From Granulicella sp. UBA5172 (GTDB lineage: Bacteria; Acidobacteriota; Terriglobia; Terriglobales; Acidobacteriaceae): DNA of 9,426 nucleotides. Made by a program: the position numbers and the translations under genes. Location: assembly GCA_002413385.1 (NCBI GenBank), contig DHWW01000058.1, positions 1-9,426 on the forward strand, in the 5' to 3' direction. The notes below the pieces were generated by a model. The model did no database searches, was not told where the DNA came from, and saw only the letters and a program-made list of their open reading frames with translations. Shown here piece after piece: positions 476 to 9,426 of this stretch. Numbering within the stretch: position 1 is the first letter of the stretch; each line of letters starts with the position of its first letter.

Positions 476-3187
476 CTAGAACGCGTAAACCAGCGAGAGT
501 CCCCCGGCGCTGATGGCGTAGTTCGGCGCTTTCTCGTTCGAGGGCAAGAAATTCGCGCCGCTGCCATACTGCATGCCTAGATAGATCCAATCGGACGACA
601 TCATCCGCTGGAACTGATAGAAGGCCTTCAGTGTGGTCTTTTTCTTGATCACGTACTGTGCCGTCGGCGACACGGTGATCTCGTCATCTCTCACCGTCGG
701 GTAATTCACTGCCGGGATGAAAAATACCGCTGCTATTCCGGAAGCCAACGGCGGAGCAGGCGCTGCGAGGGCGAGCGGATTATTGACATAGCTTCCGCCT
801 AAGACCGAGGTATCGGTTCGCGCACGGGTGTACAAGACCTGGGTTGCCAGTTCGAGATTGCCGGATAGCAGGCCCTTCCTGCTGAGCGAGAATCCAAGCG
901 TATCGATCTTATCGCGATCGCCCTTGGAGAAGTTCAGGCACGGATCTATTTTGGCGCTGGCATTCCTCGCCACAACGGTTGGATAGCACCCGCCCGATAT
1001 GAGCGTGTCAGCAGCCTGACCGACAAACGCCGTAGTGCTGTTGCTGCCGTAGGCGTCGCCCCTGGTAAGGAGCCGCCGGTTGTCGTAGGTATAGAAAACG
1101 TCGGCGACAAGGTTCTCACTCGCCGCGTAACTGGCATCCATGCTTGCTGCCCAGAAGACATCTTTCTTCAGACCGTAGGCAGAGTTGAGGTAATCGTCAT
1201 CGGTGTATTCGCCGTTGCCATGAATCGAGAGCTTATCTGTCGCCTGCCAATCCAGGTCGGAAAGCGCCTTGTGGCGATTGCGGTCGGCTTCCATGTACCG
1301 TCTCATCCCCGGCAATTCGTTGATGTTGTTGCGGCTGCCATAGAGAGACTGGGGCACGATGTTGTTATTGGGGGTGAAGATGGCTGCGTTGCCGGTGAGC
1401 GGACTGCTTGGCAGACCAGCGATCGGACCGTACGCCGTCAGCCCGGTCGCTTGCAAGTACGCGAAAGCGCTCTCGGTCGCGCCTCCTGCAGGGATCTGGT
1501 TCGCCATGGGAACAAGCGCTAGGAACGCATCCTCGTTGTACGCTCCCCTCCGCCACGAATACGCGTAGCTAACTCTTCCGGTCAGGCTCCCAACGGATGT
1601 TCTGCGCCAGTCCGCTCCCAGCGTGTGTTCATCGGTCGTACGCGCGTCGGCGCAACCGATCCAGCTGCCGGGGCAAGTGCGGTCAATTTTCTGCCACTGG
1701 TAGCTGGCCTTGAGCCACTGTTTCTTCGCGATTGTGTACTCCGCCTCCCCGTCCGCCTGGTTGGTCATCTCGCTGTAGGCGCGATTCTGGTAAATATTCG
1801 TGTTGCTTCCCAACCCGGCAGGCACTCCATAAAGACCGGCGAAGGGCGAAGCGCCGCTCTTCGTCTCGTTCGCATCCTGGAAGAAGTAGGTATGGACAGG
1901 GGTTTGATTGTCGCGGTTGAAGAACTTATAGGCTGCAACGAGGTTCCATTTCTTGTTGGGCTTTGCAGTGAACTTCGCGTTGACCAGGCTGCTCACCACA
2001 AGCCCGTTGAGCGATGGAACGGGCAGGCCGAATGCCAACTGTCCGTTAGCCGCCGTCGAGGGGCCCAGGAAGGGGTCGTTCTGGGTATTGCGCCCGTAAG
2101 ATCCGGAGACGACAAGCTTCATGTTGTCTTTAAACTTCTCCGCGGCCATAAACGTGAACTGGTTAAACTGGTTGCTCGGTGGGTTCGCCAGCGTGGCACT
2201 CTTGGTCGGATCGGCCACGTCTTGCCACGTGACGGAGCTGACATTGTCGGTGAAGAACGACCCGTAATAAGCGAGCGACAGGTAGAGGTGCTTGAATTTA
2301 TAGTTCGCCGCCGCGTTCGCCTGACTGGTGTCGAAGTCAACCGGCGTGGGAAGAGTGACGCTGTTTTCCGCCACCTGTGAAGTAACGGCGCCAAGGGCCT
2401 TGAGCCCAGACTTGTGCTCGTACGTGTAGCTGAGTGGAATGTCCAGCCTGTCCGAAGCGTTGTAGAGTAAACCGGCGTCGACCCTGGTGCGCTTGGTGGA
2501 AAGATAGACACTTTGGAAACCGGGGACGTCCGCAGCAATGATGCTGGCCAGCGTTGCCAGTTGGGCCGTCGTAGGCGCGGTCAGCACGCCCAACTTGTTG
2601 TAGACGCTACCCGCCCCGGCAAACGGATCAAAGGCCCGGAAGTTGAGCTTGGTGGCGCTGGCCTGCGGGGCCGCTGGAAAGATCCAATTTGACGGCAGCG
2701 TGAGATTCCCTGTGCCGGCGCCTAAGTAGGGTGTTTGGTAAGTATCGGAGCGGTTGGCCAGCAGTTCGGAATAACTCAAGAAGAACTGGTACTTGCCCTG
2801 CTTGCCGAACTCGGCATACAGGCTGCGTGTTTCGAGGCCGAGGTTCCTCCCCCTCATCTGCCAGCGCCACGTACTCTTGCTGTCATAGGCAGCGCCACCG
2901 CGAAAATCGAAATTTCCTATACCGAACGGTCCTGAATTCTGCAGGCCGTTATATTCGCCGAACTTGAATGAGCTGCCGCTTACGCCGCCGACCCCGGCAT
3001 CCACTGTGTTGGTAGGCGTGGTCTGGCTTGCGGCAGTAGGCGCGGGCGGACTTGCGGCGGGCGCTTGCGAGTACGCGTAGCTTCTGGAACCGGCGAGCAG
3101 GGAGAACATCAAGCAAGCCCTCGTGCCACTACGAACGTATCGCAATGCATGGGCCGCACAACTGGTTATCTTCACGTCAGTAGTCAA
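476..3187 (-). CDS. MtrB/PioB-family outer-membrane beta-barrel protein (decahaem-associated porin)
   Basis: Porin-like sheath that, in characterised relatives (MtrB, PioB, MtoB), surrounds a ten-haem cytochrome and lets electrons cross the outer membrane. The protein is about 903 residues, longer than Shewanella MtrB. After an Ala/Pro/Thr-rich leader it has the family-style opening SFKFGEYNGLQ...GNFDFRGG followed by long runs of alternating polar/aromatic strands with Asp/Asn-rich turns, and it ends in Phe (LSLVYAF), the usual C-terminal residue of outer-membrane barrels. It lacks the CxxC near the mature N-terminus known from Shewanella MtrB; four Cys occur later, in two loop-like pairs. 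Start choice: a TTG at 3187 lies 8 bases after GGAG, 22 bases past the decahaem gene stop; a GTG at 3175 is the alternative. An ATG at 3331 would overlap the upstream gene by about 120 bases and precede the signal peptide, so it is unlikely. The signal peptide itself is weak by eye (hydrophobic part ACLMFSLLAG). Family assignment is confident; the transported direction is not. Confidence 0.88.
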   Translation of the reverse strand: MTTDVKITSCAAHALRYVRSGTRACLMFSLLAGSRSYAYSQAPAASPPAPTAASQTTPTNTVDAGVGGVSGSSFKFGEYNGLQNSGPFGIGNFDFRGGAAYDSKSTWRWQMRGRNLGLETRSLYAEFGKQGKYQFFLSYSELLANRSDTYQTPYLGAGTGNLTLPSNWIFPAAPQASATKLNFRAFDPFAGAGSVYNKLGVLTAPTTAQLATLASIIAADVPGFQSVYLSTKRTRVDAGLLYNASDRLDIPLSYTYEHKSGLKALGAVTSQVAENSVTLPTPVDFDTSQANAAANYKFKHLYLSLAYYGSFFTDNVSSVTWQDVADPTKSATLANPPSNQFNQFTFMAAEKFKDNMKLVVSGSYGRNTQNDPFLGPSTAANGQLAFGLPVPSLNGLVVSSLVNAKFTAKPNKKWNLVAAYKFFNRDNQTPVHTYFFQDANETKSGASPFAGLYGVPAGLGSNTNIYQNRAYSEMTNQADGEAEYTIAKKQWLKASYQWQKIDRTCPGSWIGCADARTTDEHTLGADWRRTSVGSLTGRVSYAYSWRRGAYNEDAFLALVPMANQIPAGGATESAFAYLQATGLTAYGPIAGLPSSPLTGNAAIFTPNNNIVPQSLYGSRNNINELPGMRRYMEADRNRHKALSDLDWQATDKLSIHGNGEYTDDDYLNSAYGLKKDVFWAASMDASYAASENLVADVFYTYDNRRLLTRGDAYGSNSTTAFVGQAADTLISGGCYPTVVARNASAKIDPCLNFSKGDRDKIDTLGFSLSRKGLLSGNLELATQVLYTRARTDTSVLGGSYVNNPLALAAPAPPLASGIAAVFFIPAVNYPTVRDDEITVSPTAQYVIKKKTTLKAFYQFQRMMSSDWIYLGMQYGSGANFLPSNEKAPNYAISAGGLSLVYAF

Positions 3188-3209
3188 TTCAGTCTCTCCA
3201 ATTGAACGG

Positions 3210-4187
3210 TCATCGCTGGAACTTGGCGCCGGCCGGATGATTCGAACCGTGGATGGTTGAGTGACAGGCCAGACAGCTGCGTCCATTTCCCTGGGCTGCT
3301 GGGCTCTGGCTTCCCAGCGGAATCTGGCCAATCGCCGTGGTTACGTCGCCGTTTGGCAGATTTGCACCGCTATACAGGTTTTTCGCGTGATCGCCGCTGT
3401 GACAGCTCTGGCAGAGCATCGGCGACCGCATTTTCAGCAGAGGCGAAAAATTGGAGCCGTGAGGCGTGTGGCAATTGGTGCAGTCGTCCACAACGGGCGC
3501 ATGCTCCCAAAGGAAGGGACCGCGCTTCTCCGCGTGGCACGTGTAACACGTCTCGTTGACAGATTCCTTGATGAGGAGCTTGGGGCCGTCGGAGCCGTGC
3601 ACGTTGTGACAACTGGAACAAGGTACTTTTCCTTCGAGGATCGGGTGCCTCGAGAAGCGATGAATCTGGGCGTCCTCGGCCTTGTGGCACTTAGCGCAGA
3701 CTTGGGGCTGGGTCACCGGGTCCAGCACTTTCTGCTTTACCGCGTGCGCTTCGTGACAATCGGTGCAGGCAACTCCGTGCCTTTCGTGCTGGCTGCCCGC
3801 CCAGTGCGACCGAGCACGGACGCTTGATTCGTGACAGGTGAGACAGGATGCATTCCGCTCCACTGCCGACGAAATATTTTTGGATTTGGCTCCAAACACG
3901 ACATCCGGCTTGGTAGTCGGATCGCCCAAGTGTGAGGCACTCGCGCCGTGACAGGATTGGCAGCCGGGAGTGCGCTCGTCGGCCTTTACACCATGCTTGG
4001 TCTGGTAGATGGTGAGTATCGGCGTACTCCAACTCTCGTTGTGGCAGAGGGTACACTTCTGGTCGCCTTCCAGGGATCGGTCGACTTGTGCCAATGCGGA
4101 AAGCGAGCCGAAGAGTACCGAAACGCTGGCACAGATCAGAAAAAGCCGAATCAGTTTGTGCATCTTTTTCCTTCGCAGTTTGTGCAT
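3210..4187 (-). CDS. MtrA/PioA/DmsE-family decahaem c-type cytochrome
   Basis: Periplasmic ten-haem electron carrier expected to plug into the adjacent porin. Numbered from the upstream ATG (325 aa), it has a signal peptide (basic start, hydrophobic LIRLFLICASVSVLFGSLSALA, cleavage near residue 33) and exactly ten CxxCH haem sites, starting at Cys 45, 76, 115, 141, 164, 190, 214, 236, 259 and 305. Many additional His (for example HGV, HWAGSQHERHG, HRFSRHP, EAH, NVHG, TPHG, TIHG) can serve as distal axial ligands, as in the bis-His haems of MtrA. Length and haem count match MtrA. The start is doubled: an exact 24-bp tandem repeat places a ribosome-binding site and ATG at both 4187 and 4163, in frame, so the protein may begin with eight extra residues (MHKLRRKK) or without them; both forms keep a workable signal peptide. 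The porin gene follows 22 bases after the stop. Confidence 0.93.
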   Translation of the reverse strand: MHKLRRKKMHKLIRLFLICASVSVLFGSLSALAQVDRSLEGDQKCTLCHNESWSTPILTIYQTKHGVKADERTPGCQSCHGASASHLGDPTTKPDVVFGAKSKNISSAVERNASCLTCHESSVRARSHWAGSQHERHGVACTDCHEAHAVKQKVLDPVTQPQVCAKCHKAEDAQIHRFSRHPILEGKVPCSSCHNVHGSDGPKLLIKESVNETCYTCHAEKRGPFLWEHAPVVDDCTNCHTPHGSNFSPLLKMRSPMLCQSCHSGDHAKNLYSGANLPNGDVTTAIGQIPLGSQSPAAQGNGRSCLACHSTIHGSNHPAGAKFQR

Positions 4188-4199
4188 CTTTTTCCTTCG
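4152..4199 (-). repeat. Exact 24-bp tandem duplication covering RBS and start codon
   Basis: Units at 4152-4175 and 4176-4199 are identical. Read on the minus strand each unit contains an AAGGA Shine-Dalgarno, five bases (AAAAG), then ATG and three codons (His-Lys-Leu). Because the unit is a multiple of three, the second start is in frame with the first. The result is two complete, identical initiation sites for the decahaem cytochrome. Confidence 0.95.
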
Positions 4200-4317
4200 C
4201 GTAGAGAATCTTGAATCGTTGCTGCGTCCCTATCGAACCGAGCACTCGAGCAATCCACGCCGTGCTGTACTTCGCAACGAACAAGGTTCTGCGAGCTCTA
4301 CTCTTGCCGCTAGGTGT
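4188..4317. other. Spacer between the two multihaem cytochrome genes
   Basis: About 130 bases between the stop of the nonahaem gene and the first start of the decahaem gene, much wider than the other junctions downstream of the Rieske gene. Apart from the upstream half of the duplicated ribosome-binding site, I see no strong hairpin or clear -35/-10 pair. An internal promoter could lie here, which would let the MtrA/MtrB pair be expressed separately, but the sequence does not show it. Confidence 0.4.
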
Positions 4318-5595
4318 CTAGCTCTCAATCTTCCTGATGTACAGCCAAAGTCCAGCCAGCATCATCACAATGGCAACCAGGCACATTCCGAGTCCGATAC
4401 GACGATGATTGCGCTCTACCATCGCGTCCTTTCCGGCCTTCAGGTTGCTGGCGGCGAGTTTCCGGCCGACTTGAATATCCTGATTCACGAGGTCCGCCTT
4501 GAAGCTGTGGATGGTAACGCGAGCTTTGGTTAGTGCATCCTTCGCCTGGTCCTGAGCCAGTCGCGCTTCGCTCACATCCATGCCAGAGGCCTCGGCGACG
4601 CGAAGCGCCTGGTCCGCTTCCTTGATAGACCTATCCAGTTGCATCAACCCACTCTGGATGTTCACCCTGGCTCGATCACACCTGTCACCGGGTTGATGGC
4701 ATTTCATGCAAACGCCTTCGGGGCCGGCGCCAAGTTTCGCGTCGGTTGGATGCTGGATACCATGATTGCTATGACACACGACGCATCCGGGCAGATTAAG
4801 CGCCTCAAATGCTTTATGGTGCGAACTCTTCCCATACATCTGGGCCTGGAAGACATGGCAGCTCGCGCAAACATTCTGGACTTTATCGACACCTGGCGGC
4901 ACCGCACCATGGTTTCCATGGCAGGTTGTGCAGGTGGGCGCGCTCAGATCGCCGCGCACCACCATGTCCTGGTAGTGCACGCTGGTGATGTACTGGGCAT
5001 ACTGATTGGTGGGAATGCCGTATTGCTTCATGTACTCCGCGTCGGAGTGGCAGCGCGAGCACGTCTTCGCGACGTTGACGGGGTTAACCGTGGACCGGGG
5101 ATCTTTCGGTGCCCTTATATCGTGGACACTATGACAATCGATGCATACGGCAACTTTGGAGTCTCCAGCCGCAAAGAGCTTGCCATGCACACTGGTGTGG
5201 TACTGGTCCAACTGGTCCGTGCGTAGTCCTGGATTGAACGTCTTGATATAGGTGGGATTCGAATGGCAACTTCCACATAACTGGGGGACTTGTTTGCGAT
5301 CAATTTTGCCCTTGAACCCAGCTTTTTTTCCCATGGAGACGGTTGGATCGTAACTGCTTGCGTCGCCTCCGTGGCAACTGGTGCAGGTCAAACCCTTTTG
5401 GGAGTGGATGTCCTGACTGAACTTATCCTGAGTAACTTCCAGGGGAGCAGGAAGAGCGGAGTGACAATCCAGACAGGAGTTCGTTGTGTTCGTGGTTTGC
5501 CCATACCCCAGGCACACTCCGAGCACAATCTGCCCGACCAACCCAACATAGCGGGCTGCGCTTGATAGCCGGAAGTTATTTCGCAAGGAAGCCAT
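4318..5595 (-). CDS. Membrane-anchored nonahaem c-type cytochrome
   Basis: Multihaem periplasmic electron carrier of 425 residues from the ATG at 5595. An N-terminal signal sequence (hydrophobic stretch at about residues 17-32) is followed by nine CxxCH haem sites starting at Cys 41, 71, 107, 151, 179, 222, 243, 271 and 296. Residues of about 302-398 carry no haem site and look like a long charged, Ala-rich helix (possible coiled coil), leading to a hydrophobic segment at about 399-420 and a short basic tail (IRKIES). This predicts a haem domain in the periplasm held on the inner membrane by its C-terminus. The start overlaps the end of the cytochrome b gene by 20 bases and has only a weak Shine-Dalgarno, so translational coupling is likely; a GTG at 5601 is possible. 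Its place right after Rieske and cytochrome b suggests it replaces cytochrome c1/f as the acceptor of the complex (inference). I do not recognise a named orthologue; the haem count and anchor are read directly. Confidence 0.9.
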
Positions 5596-6656
5596 AAACA
5601 CTCATCCCGATCACATACACGAGCGCAAAGATTACTAGCCCGTTGATCCACTTTCTTGGGCGTGAGGGCTGCTCACTCTCAAAGAATGGCAGCAGAACCC
5701 ACAACAAACCGGCCAGCCCACAGCCGAGTACACCCAGAACCTCTCCGTCCATGAACCACACTTTGGACGGAATGAGTTTGAGCGTCTGGAACATGAAGAG
5801 GAAGTACCATTCGGGCTTGATTCCCGCCGGGGCAGACCCAAAAAGATCTGCCTTGGTCCCGAGATCCCATGGGAAGATTGCCGCCAAGGCACCCAGCGCT
5901 CCCATAGCTACGTACCAGGCCATCATCTCCCGGAGCGCGAAGTTGGGAAAGAACTTTATGTCTCGCCTGGCAGACGGATCCTTGACCCACTCAACTTCGG
6001 TCTTAGGCGGAACGCTCATGCCTAGACGTTGAACCAGAAAGAGGTGAACCGCGATGAGCACGCCTACTATTCCAGGGAGAACGGCAACATGAAATCCGAA
6101 GAACCTTGTCAGGGTGGCGCCAGTCACCTCGTCGCCGCCGCGTAGAAAGACCATCATGGGCTTGCCAATGATGGGAACCTGCCCAGCGATCTCGGTACCA
6201 ACCTTCGTGGCGAAGAAAGCCAGCGTGTTCCACGGCAGAAGATAACCACTGAACCCGAATCCCATGACCACAAACAAAAGCAACATTCCGGTGATCCATG
6301 TCAGTTCTCTTGGTTTGCGGTAGGCCTTCAGGAACGCCACGCTGAACATGTGTACAAAGGCGAAAAAGATCATCAGATTGGCTGACCAGGAGTGGATGGA
6401 GCGAATCAGCCAGCCATACTGCACCTTGGTCATGATGTACTGAACGCTCTCGAAGGCCTCGTTGGCGCCAGGACGGTAAATACAGTAGCAGCAGAATCCC
6501 GGTGACCACCTGGACCCCAAAAAGGAAAAGGGTGATGCCTCCGAAGAAATACCAGTAAGACAAGCGATGTTTGGGGACGGTCTTATGCTTCAGCAGGGCG
6601 ATGATATCGTCCAGACCAAGCCTTTCGTTAAGCCAGCGGAAGATGGCAGCCAACAC
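5576..6656 (-). CDS. Cytochrome b6/subunit IV-type cytochrome b of a Rieske/b complex, with a one-base frameshift
   Basis: Quinol-oxidising membrane subunit carrying two b haems. Joined across the frameshift it is 359 residues: an N-terminal b6-like part with four membrane helices and a C-terminal part like subunit IV with three. Haem ligands are His 88 and 102 (H-x13-H) and His 189 and 204 (H-x14-H, the b6 spacing). The PEWY quinol-site motif is at 281-284, and b6-like blocks include [20 protein letters not shown] and KPRELTW. The Cys that binds the extra haem ci in b6 is replaced by Phe (residue 37). The start is GTG at 6656, six bases after GGGAGG and one base past the Rieske stop. In the TTT/AAA run at 6478-6480 one base too many breaks the frame after Tyr 59: the upstream frame would run on to 6003, and the conserved remainder is read in the frame that ends at 5576. 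All else is intact, so a sequencing error or a very recent mutation is likely. Conceptual product confident; functional state uncertain. Confidence 0.9.
6478..6480 (-). other. Single-base frameshift site in cytochrome b
   Basis: The minus strand reads tat-tta-ccg here, whereas the conserved [10 protein letters not shown] continuation needs tat-tac-cgt. Removing one T of the TTT run restores one 359-codon frame that matches cytochrome b6 on both sides. The reading frame downstream has no proper start of its own (only a TTG in mid-helix sequence). Confidence 0.85.
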
Positions 6657-6657
6657 G

Positions 6658-7119
6658 CTATGCCTCCCGCTTTCGGCTGACGTATATCTCGTCACCGCGT
6701 ACATGCACATCGAAGACATCAAGCGGTCTTGGCGGCGGACCTGAAATGTTTCGGCCATCGATACCGTAGGTGCCGTTGTGGCAGGCACACCAGACTTCGC
6801 CCATATCGGCGCGATACTGCACGGTGCAGCCGAGGTGGGTGCAGGTAGCAGAGAGCGCGTGATACGTGCCGTCGGCGGCCAAGATCAGCAGGCCAGGATG
6901 GTTGCCAAAACGAAAGATCTCTCCGGAATTCGGCTTCAGTGCCCCGACCTTGGCAGCAATGACTTCGTCTCCGCCAAGATCAACCACCGGCGGCGGAACC
7001 AGATAGCGCATCACGGGATAGAGGAATGAAGCCAGAGATACGAGCAGGCCGCCTCCAACGAAGTATTCAATCACGCTGCGACGCGTCGATCCCGATGGTG
7101 AATTTTCGTCGACGCTCAT
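6658..7119 (-). CDS. Rieske [2Fe-2S] protein of the quinol:cytochrome c oxidoreductase
   Basis: Carries electrons from quinol bound at cytochrome b to a periplasmic cytochrome. It is 153 residues. The N-terminus has an Arg-Arg pair (13-14) before a hydrophobic segment (about 18-40), the usual Tat-type signal anchor of Rieske proteins. The cluster motifs are C93-T-H95-L-G-C98 and C111-A-C113-H114-N-G: Cys 93, His 95, Cys 111 and His 114 bind iron, and Cys 98/Cys 113 form the family's disulfide. The C-terminal GPPPRPL loop that covers the cluster is present. The ATG at 7119 is preceded by TAAGGAGGTG, a near-perfect Shine-Dalgarno, which lies largely in a 17-bp hairpin (7129-7167). The stop is one base before the cytochrome b start, so the two are co-translated. 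Confidence 0.95.
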   Translation of the reverse strand: MSVDENSPSGSTRRSVIEYFVGGGLLVSLASFLYPVMRYLVPPPVVDLGGDEVIAAKVGALKPNSGEIFRFGNHPGLLILAADGTYHALSATCTHLGCTVQYRADMGEVWCACHNGTYGIDGRNISGPPPRPLDVFDVHVRGDEIYVSRKREA

Positions 7120-7128
7120 TCACTACAC

Positions 7129-7167
7129 CTCCTTACAGAAGTACCACTTCGGTACTTCTGTAAGGAG
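7129..7167 (-). promoter_or_regulatory. Perfect 17-bp hairpin that covers the Rieske ribosome-binding site
   Basis: Arms 7129-7145 and 7151-7167 are exactly complementary, with a 5-base loop at 7146-7150. In the minus-strand transcript the 3' arm ends in TAAGGAG, the core of the Shine-Dalgarno for the Rieske gene, and the 5' arm begins with its exact complement, CTCCTTA. The folded form would therefore hide the ribosome-binding site eight to nine bases before the ATG. There is no U-run, so a terminator is unlikely. Regulatory use is inferred; the structure itself is read directly. Confidence 0.75.
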
Positions 7168-7180
7168 CATGAGGGCTGTG

Positions 7181-7235
7181 TAACCCTCTGGTCTGTGATC
7201 CACAGCACAGATTCACAGCACAGACCAGAGGGTTA
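7181..7235 (-). repeat. Second perfect 17-bp inverted repeat, with direct repeats in its centre
   Basis: Arms 7181-7197 and 7219-7235 are exactly complementary, with 21 bases between. Inside, CACAGCACAGA occurs twice (7201-7211 and 7214-7224, period 13), the second copy overlapping the right arm. This allows alternative pairings: the TCTGTG of the left arm can pair with either copy. CCCTC at 7184-7188 can also pair with GAGGG at 7171-7175 instead of the one at 7229-7233. No U-run follows on the minus strand, so it is not a standard terminator; mRNA stabilisation/processing, an attenuator or a mobile palindrome are possible. Confidence 0.7.
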
Positions 7236-7405
7236 GGGGAAACTATCTTATAAGGCCGAACGGCTAAGAGCGGCCCACTGCCAGAGGTCGATCGAAATGG
7301 AATCGGACGCATTTGTAACACGCCCGAGAGGTTGACAGGAGCAGGAATGGTCGCATTCAACACTTCGCGAAATTGCTCTTCGCTTAGGCCATTTCTGCTT
7401 TATAC
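7236..7405. other. Rest of the cytochrome c / Rieske spacer
   Basis: About 170 bases between the second inverted repeat and the stop of the monohaem cytochrome gene. A minus-strand frame (7363-7133) runs through it and through both hairpins, but it has no ribosome-binding site or recognisable domain and is probably chance. I see no clear promoter. Confidence 0.45.
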
Positions 7406-7726
7406 CTACTTCTGCAACGTGCGGATGTAGGCGATGGCTGATTTGATCTGATCGTCAGTAAGCTTGCCTTTGTAAGCGGGCATCTTGCCCTTGCCATTCG
7501 TCGCGGTCGCGATCAGTTCAGAGTCGGGGGCCTTGACGATTGCCGGGTCCTTGAAGGATGCAGCTTTCATGGCCTTGCCGGCCGGGGTTGTGCCCAAGCC
7601 GTCCGCGCCGTGGCACATCGCGCACTTCGCTTTGTAAGTATCCGCACCGGAGCCCGCCGCAAATGCCGGTGTGACGATGGATGCTGCAAGGCAGCCGATT
7701 ACTGCGTATTTCAAATTGAATTTCAC
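7406..7726 (-). CDS. Monohaem class I cytochrome c, periplasmic
   Basis: Small soluble electron carrier of 106 residues before processing. The start is GTG at 7726, seven bases after AAAGGAG. It gives a clean signal peptide (KFNLKYAVIGCLAASIVTPAFA, cleavage after about residue 23, AFA). Reading further upstream to an ATG at 7822 would put an Arg-rich tail before the signal and is rejected. The mature part has one haem site, CAMCH, followed by GADGLG, and a distal Met in GKMPAYKGKLTDDQIKSAIAYIRTL, the typical C-terminal helix of c5/c6/c555-like cytochromes. As the first gene of the cluster it may shuttle electrons between the Rieske/b complex and the multihaem proteins or an oxidase (inference). 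It is separated from the Rieske gene by 286 bases with two hairpins, so it may be expressed at a different level. Confidence 0.93.
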   Translation of the reverse strand: MKFNLKYAVIGCLAASIVTPAFAAGSGADTYKAKCAMCHGADGLGTTPAGKAMKAASFKDPAIVKAPDSELIATATNGKGKMPAYKGKLTDDQIKSAIAYIRTLQK

Positions 7727-8526
7727 TAAGTTGCTCCTTTGTACCGGGATAGCCAATCCGCTCCCCCGGCTACGACGCACTATACTCCCACGAGCTGCGA
7801 GCGGCCCGAGCAAACGGTTCACATGGGATTCAAAGTCGATCCTTTTCCCCCGGTAGGAAGCCAGATTTATGGACCTTGCAGACGATTGTGACTCTGCCGT
7901 CTGGCCAGAAGTTTATCCATATTTCGCCCACGTCAACTGTCGTGAAATCACCGATGCTGTCAGGGATCGCATGAGTCTTGCGTGGTGGATTGCGTGCGGA
8001 GTGTCGGGCTGGACAGGAGTAAGGTGGCTTGTTCTTAAGCCCACAGCTTCTGGAACAGCCTTCTTGGAGCCGCTCTCCTTCTTATTTCCATTGGGATATA
8101 GCCCATGAGTCGGCGAGCCTTTTGGGACGAAGAGCAGCGGTTCTAAAGCAGGTTACTTTGTTTCAAAATGTGCAATCGAGGCATTGGTGTTTAGGAGCCT
8201 TTTAGAACGGCCGATGGGAACCGTCGGGAAAAATGGGAAGGGGGATATCCTGAGCGTGAGATCCGCGTCCCGTGGATAATCGTGCCTCGGGCTAGGGGCT
8301 GAACGCGATCCAGTGCTAATGTGATATGGCTGTCACTCACTTTTGTTTGGATAGCTGGCGAGGCCCATGGCCGGAAGGGCCGGGGGGCTGGAAGAGGTGT
8401 TTCCGTCTGGTTTACATCTCCGTCTACACATATACGAGCCTAGCTGTGAAGTTTCAAGAGGTTGTCCATTCGATCTGACTGCGAGAAGCTGGTTCTGCGA
8501 CGAATCAGTTTTATCGGAGGGACCGA
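7727..8526. other. Long gene-free stretch upstream of the cluster
   Basis: About 800 bases with no gene I can support. It should hold the promoter of the leftward cluster; a TATAGT on the minus strand (7784-7779) could be a -10 element, but no matching -35 box is visible, so I do not call a promoter. A plus-strand frame of 79 codons (7869-8108) lacks a ribosome-binding site and known motifs. The left end of the transposable element must lie somewhere before 8527, but I cannot identify its terminal repeat. No tRNA or CRISPR pattern is visible. Confidence 0.45.
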
Positions 8527-9426
8527 ATGGACTACCACCAGAATGCCCGACTGACGGCCTATAGTCGAGAGCAGTTGGCCAAGAGAGTTCTTGAGCAGGG
8601 GCTGACGCCAAATGGGTCCGCCGCTATCGCGAGCACGGAGCAGCCGGTCTCGGGGATCGAAGCTCACGCCCGCTGCGTTCCCCACGGCTTACCGCTTCGT
8701 CCTTGTCCGAGCAGGTTCTTGCCCTTCGCCGGCTGCGCTACAACGGTCTTCGGATCTCCATGGCCCTCGGGCTGAGCCGCGCCACGGTGAGCCGCATCCT
8801 GCGCCGTGCGGGCATGAACCGGCTGCGATCCCTGGACCCGCCGCCCCCGGTGGTGCGCTACGAGCACAAGCGTCCCGGTAGCCTCATCCACTTCGATATC
8901 AAACGCCTGGCCAGGATCGTCAAGCCCGGCCACCGCGTCCACGGCGACCGTAGCCGCGAAACGCGCGGCGCGGGTTACGAGTACCTGCACATCGCCATCG
9001 ACGATCACAGCCGGATCAGCTTCGCGGCCATCCTGCCCGACCAGACCAGCGCCTCGGCCCAACGGTTTTTCCACATGAGCCGAGCCCACTTCTCCCGCTT
9101 CGGCTTCTCCATCCGCCGCGTCCTCACCGACAACGGCCCCTGCTACCGCGACCGGCGCTTCCGCATGTTGCTCAACCAGCAACACGTCAAGCACCGCTTC
9201 ACCCGCGCCTACACTCCGCGCACCAACGGAAAGGCCGAACGCTTCATCCAGACTATGCTCCGCGAGTGGGCCTACTCCCGAACCTATCAGACCTCAGACG
9301 AACGAAACGCACAGCTCGACCCCTGGCTCCATGACTACAACTTCCACAGACCACACTCAAGCCTTACACTCAAAACTCCAGCCTCTCGCGCAGGCCTGAA
9401 TCGGAACAACCTCCTGAGCCTCCACA
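8527..9426 (+). pseudogene. IS481-family transposase, internally deleted and cut by the window end
   Basis: DDE transposase of an insertion sequence. It begins at ATG 8527, five bases after GGAGGG, with the family opening MDYHQNARLTAYSREQLAKR. At about 8608 the frame changes: the first helix-turn-helix should continue for roughly 16 more residues, but the sequence jumps from VLEQGLT to KWVRRYREHGAAGL two bases later in another frame. A deletion of about 46 bases explains both the missing residues and the shift. From 8610 the frame is open to the window end and contains a second helix-turn-helix (LSRATVSRILRRAG) and the catalytic core: Asp in IDDHSR (codon at 9000), Asp in LTDNGPCY (9129) and Glu in TNGKAERFIQT (9237), an exact D-x35-E spacing. 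The C-terminal HDYNFHRPHSSL block is present. The start codon therefore cannot yield a full enzyme without a frameshift. The body is richer in G and C than the stretch before it, in keeping with transfer. Confidence 0.88.
8527..9426 (+). mobile_element. IS481-family insertion sequence, partial
   Basis: Inferred from the transposase gene, which is the only part seen. The left boundary and its terminal inverted repeat are not recognised, and the right boundary lies beyond the window. It sits upstream of the electron-transfer cluster and transcribes away from it. Confidence 0.7.

Follow-up and report, generated by a model that had tools for sequence, protein, structure and literature searches.

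A nonahaem Rieske/cytochrome b unit recurs beside candidate MtrAB-type electron conduits in Acidobacteriota

Acidobacteria abound in soils, and there is no settled account of how their quinones are connected with the cell exterior. The locus described here is a six-gene cluster on the minus strand of contig DHWW01000058.1 from Granulicella sp. UBA5172 (Acidobacteriota), the entire 9,426 bp of which (G000:C57) constitute the window analysed here; the assembly, GCA_002413385.1, consists of 354 contigs totalling 3.58 Mb and is 74.6% complete. In order of transcription, the cluster encodes a monohaem cytochrome c, a Rieske protein, a cytochrome b, a nonahaem cytochrome c, a decahaem cytochrome c and an MtrB/PioB-type porin (Table 1). 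We found that the Rieske, cytochrome b and nonahaem genes form a fixed unit, referred to here as bc9, and that this unit is recurrently placed beside decahaem-porin pairs of several lineages. We favour, with a probability of roughly 0.55, the reading that bc9 and the MtrAB-type pair would form a single chain carrying electrons from quinones to the outside, with the nonahaem protein in the place of cytochrome c1. A preliminary description of the locus, made from its sequence, had listed the same six families on one strand with 20 haem c sites in three proteins, and Pfam matches for all six families together with the CXXCH counts (1 + 9 + 10) bear this out.

Table 1. Features of the window, in order of transcription of the cluster.
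Feature	Position	Strand	Evidence
Monohaem cytochrome c	7406..7726	-	Pfam Cytochrome_CBB3 1.1e-15, one CXXCH; 106 aa from GTG 7726
Perfect inverted repeat, 17-bp arms, 21-nt loop	7181..7235		Repeat search
Perfect inverted repeat, 17-bp arms, 5-nt loop	7129..7167		3' RNA arm contains AAGGAG upstream of Rieske start
Rieske iron-sulfur protein	6658..7119	-	Pfam Rieske 1.5e-10; one N-terminal membrane helix
b6/IV-type cytochrome b, frame broken at about 6470-6490	5576..6656	-	Two ORFs; Pfam Cytochrome_B on both, Cytochrom_B_C on C-part
Nonahaem cytochrome c	4318..5595	-	Nine CXXCH; C-terminal helical region and hydrophobic membrane helix, residues 400-418
Decahaem cytochrome c, MtrA type	3210..4187	-	Ten CXXCH; PDB 6r2q_A E 4.2e-64
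MtrB/PioB-type outer-membrane porin	476..3331 (ORF; likely start GTG 3175)	-	PF11854 E 3e-112, residues 121-951

The quinone-facing half of the proposed chain is the bc9 unit. The window's Rieske protein carries both cluster-binding boxes (CTHLGC and CACHNGTY), and its best matches in the PDB are b6f Rieske chains. The C-terminal part of cytochrome b has two b-haem histidine pairs (H-13-H and H-14-H) and the PEWY motif of the Qo site; PEWY or PEWF was present in 58 of 63 cytochrome b open reading frames (ORFs) of all types, while five matched neither pattern. Pfam supports the b6/IV-type assignment of the preliminary description, with the short N-terminal part scoring 22.9 bits, below the cut-off of 27.2. 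A cysteine in helix A of b6 binds the covalent haem cn. At this position we found phenylalanine, both in the window's N-terminal part and in the alignment of the homologue from genome G055, whose best PDB match is b6, and so the haem cn cysteine of b6f is absent.

The third gene of the complex has no c1 or f domain by Pfam, and a PDB search with its product returned no match. The NapC/NirT domain (PF03264) matched neither the nonahaem nor the decahaem protein, indicating that these are not of the CymA/NapC type. The nonahaem protein has a predicted membrane anchor, in line with the preliminary description, in its C-terminal hydrophobic helix. Its AlphaFold model has a mean pLDDT of 48.6, and only the C-terminal helical part is higher (from about residue 300, in blocks of 53-94 with one dip to 48). 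Homologues at E <= 1e-60 were found in 63 of 396 genomes sampled across the phylum, the window's own included, and 6615 of 7999 scored candidates in protein collections matched at E <= 0.001; among the matches listed, homologues are named 'hypothetical' or cytochrome c3/CXXCH-family, and some come from Terracidiphilus and Terriglobales. We surveyed the neighbourhoods of 50 of 70 nonahaem places along with those of close relatives and porin loci, the other 20 places being left out. By a distance rule, a cytochrome b-nonahaem core was present in 54 of the 56 nonahaem-labelled stretches, and all 54 have a Rieske gene on the same strand. The two stretches without a core are one holding half a gene split between contigs (L042) and one with an overlong nonahaem ORF (L233), whose gene string nonetheless reads Rieske-cytochrome b-nonahaem. 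Furthermore, cytochrome b and the nonahaem protein are fused in one ORF at two loci (L195 and L237). This constant association, together with the fusions, is good evidence that the nonahaem cytochrome is the third subunit, likely taking the place of c1/f.

Two further features bear on what bc9 might do. Across 56 Rieske ORFs, the position of the potential-raising serine is occupied by glycine in 55 and alanine in one, and the corresponding tyrosine position by tyrosine (43) or phenylalanine (13). Mutation of these residues in yeast Rieske lowers the potential by 130 mV (serine) and 65 mV (tyrosine), as cited in a passage of PMC12954380; because the serine is replaced by glycine, the bc9 Rieske appears to be of the lower-potential kind. 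In addition, further cytochrome b genes occur on three contigs of the genome (C136, C353 and C276), one of which, C353, also bears a Rieske gene and COX1, and so bc9 is likely a dedicated extra complex. Elsewhere, five loci (L229, L231, L238, L239 and L244) have a gene for a 17-haem cytochrome immediately upstream of bc9. Another contig of the window's genome carries a 195-bp piece (L046, G000:C265, 3815-4009) with 86% DNA identity to window positions 4288-4479; it corresponds to the 3' end of another nonahaem gene, the rest of which is absent there.

The outward-facing half is an MtrA-type decahaem gene with an adjacent PF11854 porin gene on the same strand, the two genes that characterize MtrAB, PioAB and MtoAB conduits. 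The pair is therefore likely an MtrAB-type outer-membrane electron conduit, as judged from its sequence. The best structural match, 6r2q_A, which we take to be an Mtr complex entry, appeared in the PDB search under the label 'Cystathionine beta-synthase', though its sequence is that of a multihaem cytochrome. No outer-surface partner such as MtrC was found in the 475 bases between the porin and the contig end, which are all that remains on that side. The same genome has a second set of decahaem cytochrome, 820-aa ORF and monohaem c (L047, G000:C148, 5594-9634), in which the 820-aa ORF is related to porin-like ORFs adjoining bc9 in genomes G313 and G032 and the monohaem c shares 59% identity with that of the window.

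If the two halves work together, their genes should be found together beyond this contig. PF11854 occurs in 7 genomes of the 61-genome relatives set, and bc genes adjoin it in five (the window's own, G055, G030, G028 and G016). Starting from the nonahaem gene, we found a conduit pair, defined as a same-strand decahaem gene with a barrel-sized neighbour, within 6 kb in 9 of 43 bc9 cores (window excluded). Three are paired with PF11854 porins (L038, L040 and L041), of which L040 rests on the porin and a three-haem remnant, its decahaem gene being cut by the contig end. The other six (L209, L218, L219, L221, L224 and L226) are paired with large ORFs that the MtrB profile does not recognise. Profile comparison to the MtrB set gave 97.8% probability for L209, L042 and the own-genome C148 protein, and 99.2% for L143, L218, L219, L221, L224 and L226, in a set that also included one unrelated protein (L227_4706). 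Starting from the porin, cytochrome b was present in 13 of 84 stretches (window included), on the same strand in 10 and the opposite strand in three; seven fragmentary PF11854 places are omitted from this survey (two each in G249 and G073, and one each in G185, G237 and G282 C240). By chance about 1.6 cases would be expected in the 1.42 Mb covered, a rough figure derived from the presence of cytochrome b on four contigs of the window's own 3.58-Mb genome. The PF11854 pairings span family groups f1, f7, f12, f21, f27, f33, f55, f79 and f84, and two types of bc complex take part: bc9, and a second type in G016 (L057) and G146 (L174), in which a Rieske gene and a cytochrome b-c fusion immediately precede MtrA-MtrB. 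The preliminary description had held that confinement of this gene order to one genome would speak against its proposal, and the order does recur, although the window's version (bc9, decahaem, porin) is rarer, being seen in L134 and, over two contigs, in G032 (L043 with Rieske-cytochrome b-nonahaem; L042 with nonahaem-decahaem-large ORF-monohaem c). The conduit-then-bc9 order is commoner. At two further loci (L138 and L139), two tandem Rieske-cytochrome b sets followed by 11-haem and 21-haem cytochromes adjoin a decahaem-porin pair.

We next asked how the pairing is distributed on a quick porin tree of 88 rows, which has six long end branches and from which L129, on the same contig as L035, was dropped. 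Under a first labelling, 11 bc-linked rows require nine changes, all nine forced by starred branches (shuffled mean 10.5, with 48 of 500 shuffles as low); with corrected gene calls, 15 bc-linked rows require 13 changes, 12 of them forced (shuffled mean 14.0, 129 of 500 as low); and with same-strand cases only, 12 rows require 10. These counts, which do not tell gain from loss and are approximate because contig ends can hide pairings, indicate that the bc link is scattered over the tree instead of descending within a single clade. Descent from one ancestral bc-porin pairing is at odds with this scatter. Individual loci also show interchange: the window's porin is 87% identical to that of another Granulicella metagenome-assembled genome (MAG), L035, where the pair has neither Rieske nor cytochrome b in 22.8 kb, and 68% identical to that of the same-genus genome G016, which has the other type of bc complex (its cytochrome b being 33% identical). 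The C-terminal part of the window's cytochrome b is nearest to G032, G442 and G313, in a tree with very long branches that we used for nearest rows only. From these comparisons, the pairing appears to recur with interchangeable parts. The core proposal of the preliminary description, a co-encoded quinone-to-surface module, thereby gains support from recurrence in several families and from this interchange of parts.

For the chain that we favour, the following route may be proposed. Menaquinol would give up its electrons at the Qo site in a Q-cycle, as the two b-haem histidine pairs and PEWY suggest, and these would pass from the Rieske protein to the nonahaem protein, and from there to the decahaem cytochrome inside the porin, either directly or via the monohaem c, and so to the outside. 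The acceptor would be of fairly high potential; Fe(III) and Mn(IV) in acid soils are examples. The complex would thereby provide extracellular respiration with a proton-coupling step, which quinol dehydrogenases of the CymA type lack.

The layout of the cluster qualifies two earlier claims. Junctions had been called mostly tight, and this holds for three of five: the Rieske and cytochrome b genes are 1 nt apart, cytochrome b and the nonahaem gene overlap by 20 nt, and decahaem and porin genes are 34 nt apart, assuming that the porin starts at the putative GTG 3175. It does not hold for the nonahaem-decahaem gap of 130 nt or for the gap of 286 nt between monohaem c and Rieske, which contains both perfect inverted repeats. 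The suggestion that one transcript could supply the whole chain is consequently too strong, given this hairpin-bearing gap and a break in the cytochrome b frame. The monohaem c gene, whose ORF call begins at 7822, upstream of GTG 7726, precedes the Rieske gene in several relatives' loci too. The hairpin nearer to Rieske would, as RNA, pair up the AAGGAG ribosome-binding stretch of that gene (fold z-score -6.6). It has no second copy in its own genome with up to three mismatches allowed, and no hairpins as long as the window's were found upstream of Rieske in nine relatives; the hairpins might act as a translational switch, or they might be a mobile palindrome or a product of assembly. About 1 kb upstream of the cluster, an integrase-core transposase gene on the plus strand (8703-9425) runs off the contig end, and G+C in the window is higher (0.65) from 8600 onward, where this gene sits.

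Several observations weigh against one dedicated chain with outward flow. The same chain might run in reverse, with electrons from an outside donor such as Fe(II) entering through the conduit, to be used by the bc complex for uphill reduction of quinone or handed by the monohaem c to oxidases. Outside the phylum, the closest conduits found come from Betaproteobacteria, their porin being 51% identical, and related MtoAB and PioAB pairs serve Fe(II) oxidation according to passages of PMC10654088; the monohaem c and the several COX1 genes of the genome would also suit this direction. We nevertheless regard reversal as unlikely and favour outward flow, because the Rieske protein looks lower-potential, because RuBisCO had no match in the 74.6%-complete own genome (other carbon-fixation pathways were not searched), and because in genome G031 a 267-aa ORF and COX1 lie downstream of bc9 on its strand, an order that fits quinol oxidation. 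That COX1 takes the conduit's place after bc9 in G031 is at the same time a point against the favoured chain, as are the 34 of 43 nonahaem-drawn cores that lack a conduit pair on their strand within 6 kb (33 with G032 counted as paired) and the 71 of 84 porin-drawn stretches without cytochrome b; some of these loci are cut by contig ends. In G058 and G052, both of which have bc9 and PF11854, the two lie on separate contigs. Another reading makes bc9 a general complex III serving various acceptors, with the MtrAB pair beside it by chance or position. The 34 cores without a conduit pair would be consistent with this, as would L035, whose conduit genes stand without bc genes, and the loose gaps of 286 and 130 nt. 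Mere neighbourhood appears quite improbable to us even so, since the pairing recurs whether the survey starts from the nonahaem gene or from the porin, involves several families, two bc types and more than one porin lineage, and is same-strand in most porin-cytochrome b stretches.

It may also be that the cluster is a decaying or freshly moved copy, not working in this strain. Cytochrome b, which had been described as a single gene, is not one open frame: ORF 6003-6788 gives the frame of the N-terminal part and ORF 5576-6520 that of the C-terminal part, with a single switch near 6480 that had gone unnoticed, so that the window as assembled lacks the intact cytochrome b gene of a bc1/b6f complex. 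The transposase gene upstream, the 3' fragment of a second nonahaem gene on C265 and patchy presence in the genus would accord with this reading. A nonahaem orthologue was not found in any of 27 other same-genus genomes (best E 8e-13), and the porin was found in only one of them, G016; this patchiness could reflect exchange or loss or, as the missing orthologue makes possible, mis-binning of the contig. Tetranucleotide composition does not discriminate here: the window correlates at r = 0.90 with nine other own-genome stretches (0.72 to 0.96 among themselves), and stretches from other genomes, L035 and L208, score 0.95 and 0.92. Against decay, the lesion is single, all other genes of the cluster are open, and cytochrome b is open in relatives such as L038 and L043. 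Compared with G032, the N-terminal part (58 codons) differs 21/9/32 by codon position and the C-terminal part (298 codons) 47/26/133, so that third positions take 32 of 62 and 133 of 206 differences. Both parts therefore look constrained, suggesting that the break is recent or an assembly error, and for a fragmented MAG such as this, faulty base calling or assembly is just as probable. We thus give decay only a slight chance, while noting that a functional complex requires the break to be an assembly error or to be absent from other strains.

The preliminary description had implied that a co-encoded bc complex was without precedent, and this is not the case. The Geobacter cluster extHIJKLMNOPQS (GSU2930-2940) combines Rieske and cytochrome b genes with those of an outer-membrane porin and of multihaem c proteins, including ones with 10 and 12 haems, and sections of PMC2825233 and PMC5877670 suggest it as a site of quinol oxidation. 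As described there, it differs in its 23-kDa cytochrome b, its 45-kDa porin ExtI, tied to selenite and tellurite, its rhodanese and its lipoprotein c, whereas the window, in a comparison made by description only, combines an MtrAB pair with a nonahaem c bearing a predicted anchor and a long cytochrome b of the b6/IV type. In karst cave MAGs reported in 2026, petB and petC lie inside porin-cytochrome clusters of four MAGs, so that cytochrome b and Rieske genes stand among a smaller decahaem cytochrome and porin much as in the window (PMC13264449); this occupies one sentence of a section that does not describe a nonahaem subunit, recurrence, phylogeny or interchange. That paper likens its clusters to 'PCC4' of He et al. 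2017, whose inner-membrane protein has five helices and is likened to cytochrome b, the word Rieske being absent from the relevant passages of PMC5566968. MtrAB of Shewanella, MtoAB and PioAB share with the window the decahaem cytochrome and PF11854 porin, but their quinone step is described, in parts of PMC8805035 and PMC10654088, as CymA, NetBCD or not co-encoded. Anammox Rieske/cytochrome b complexes likewise have a multihaem c in the cytochrome f place and a b6-like core, but with a four-helix cytochrome b plus a separate subunit-IV-like protein, a hexa- or octahaem c and an NAD(P) oxidoreductase subunit, and the passages of PMC12954380 on them mention no outer-membrane conduit. Among open-licence papers we found none on a nonahaem bc unit, and 'nonaheme' together with 'Rieske' gave none. 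It therefore seems that bc genes near porin-cytochrome genes were already known, and that the nonahaem unit and its recurrent, interchangeable pairing are new.

The sections of a published survey that treat mtrCAB clusters of Group 5 Acidobacteriia report no inner-membrane quinone oxidoreductase nearby (PMC8805035), and the pairing of bc9 with conduits offers a candidate for this partner. More broadly, and tentatively, as we would put it at somewhat less than an even chance, a proton-translocating bc9-type complex, and not one of the CymA type, may be a standard inner-membrane partner of MtrAB-type conduits in Acidobacteriota, swapped many times between conduits, as bc types have been beside the same conduit, and adding a Q-cycle coupling site. 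If true, the bc9-conduit chain predicts an energy-conserving step in extracellular respiration that is missing from the Shewanella model.

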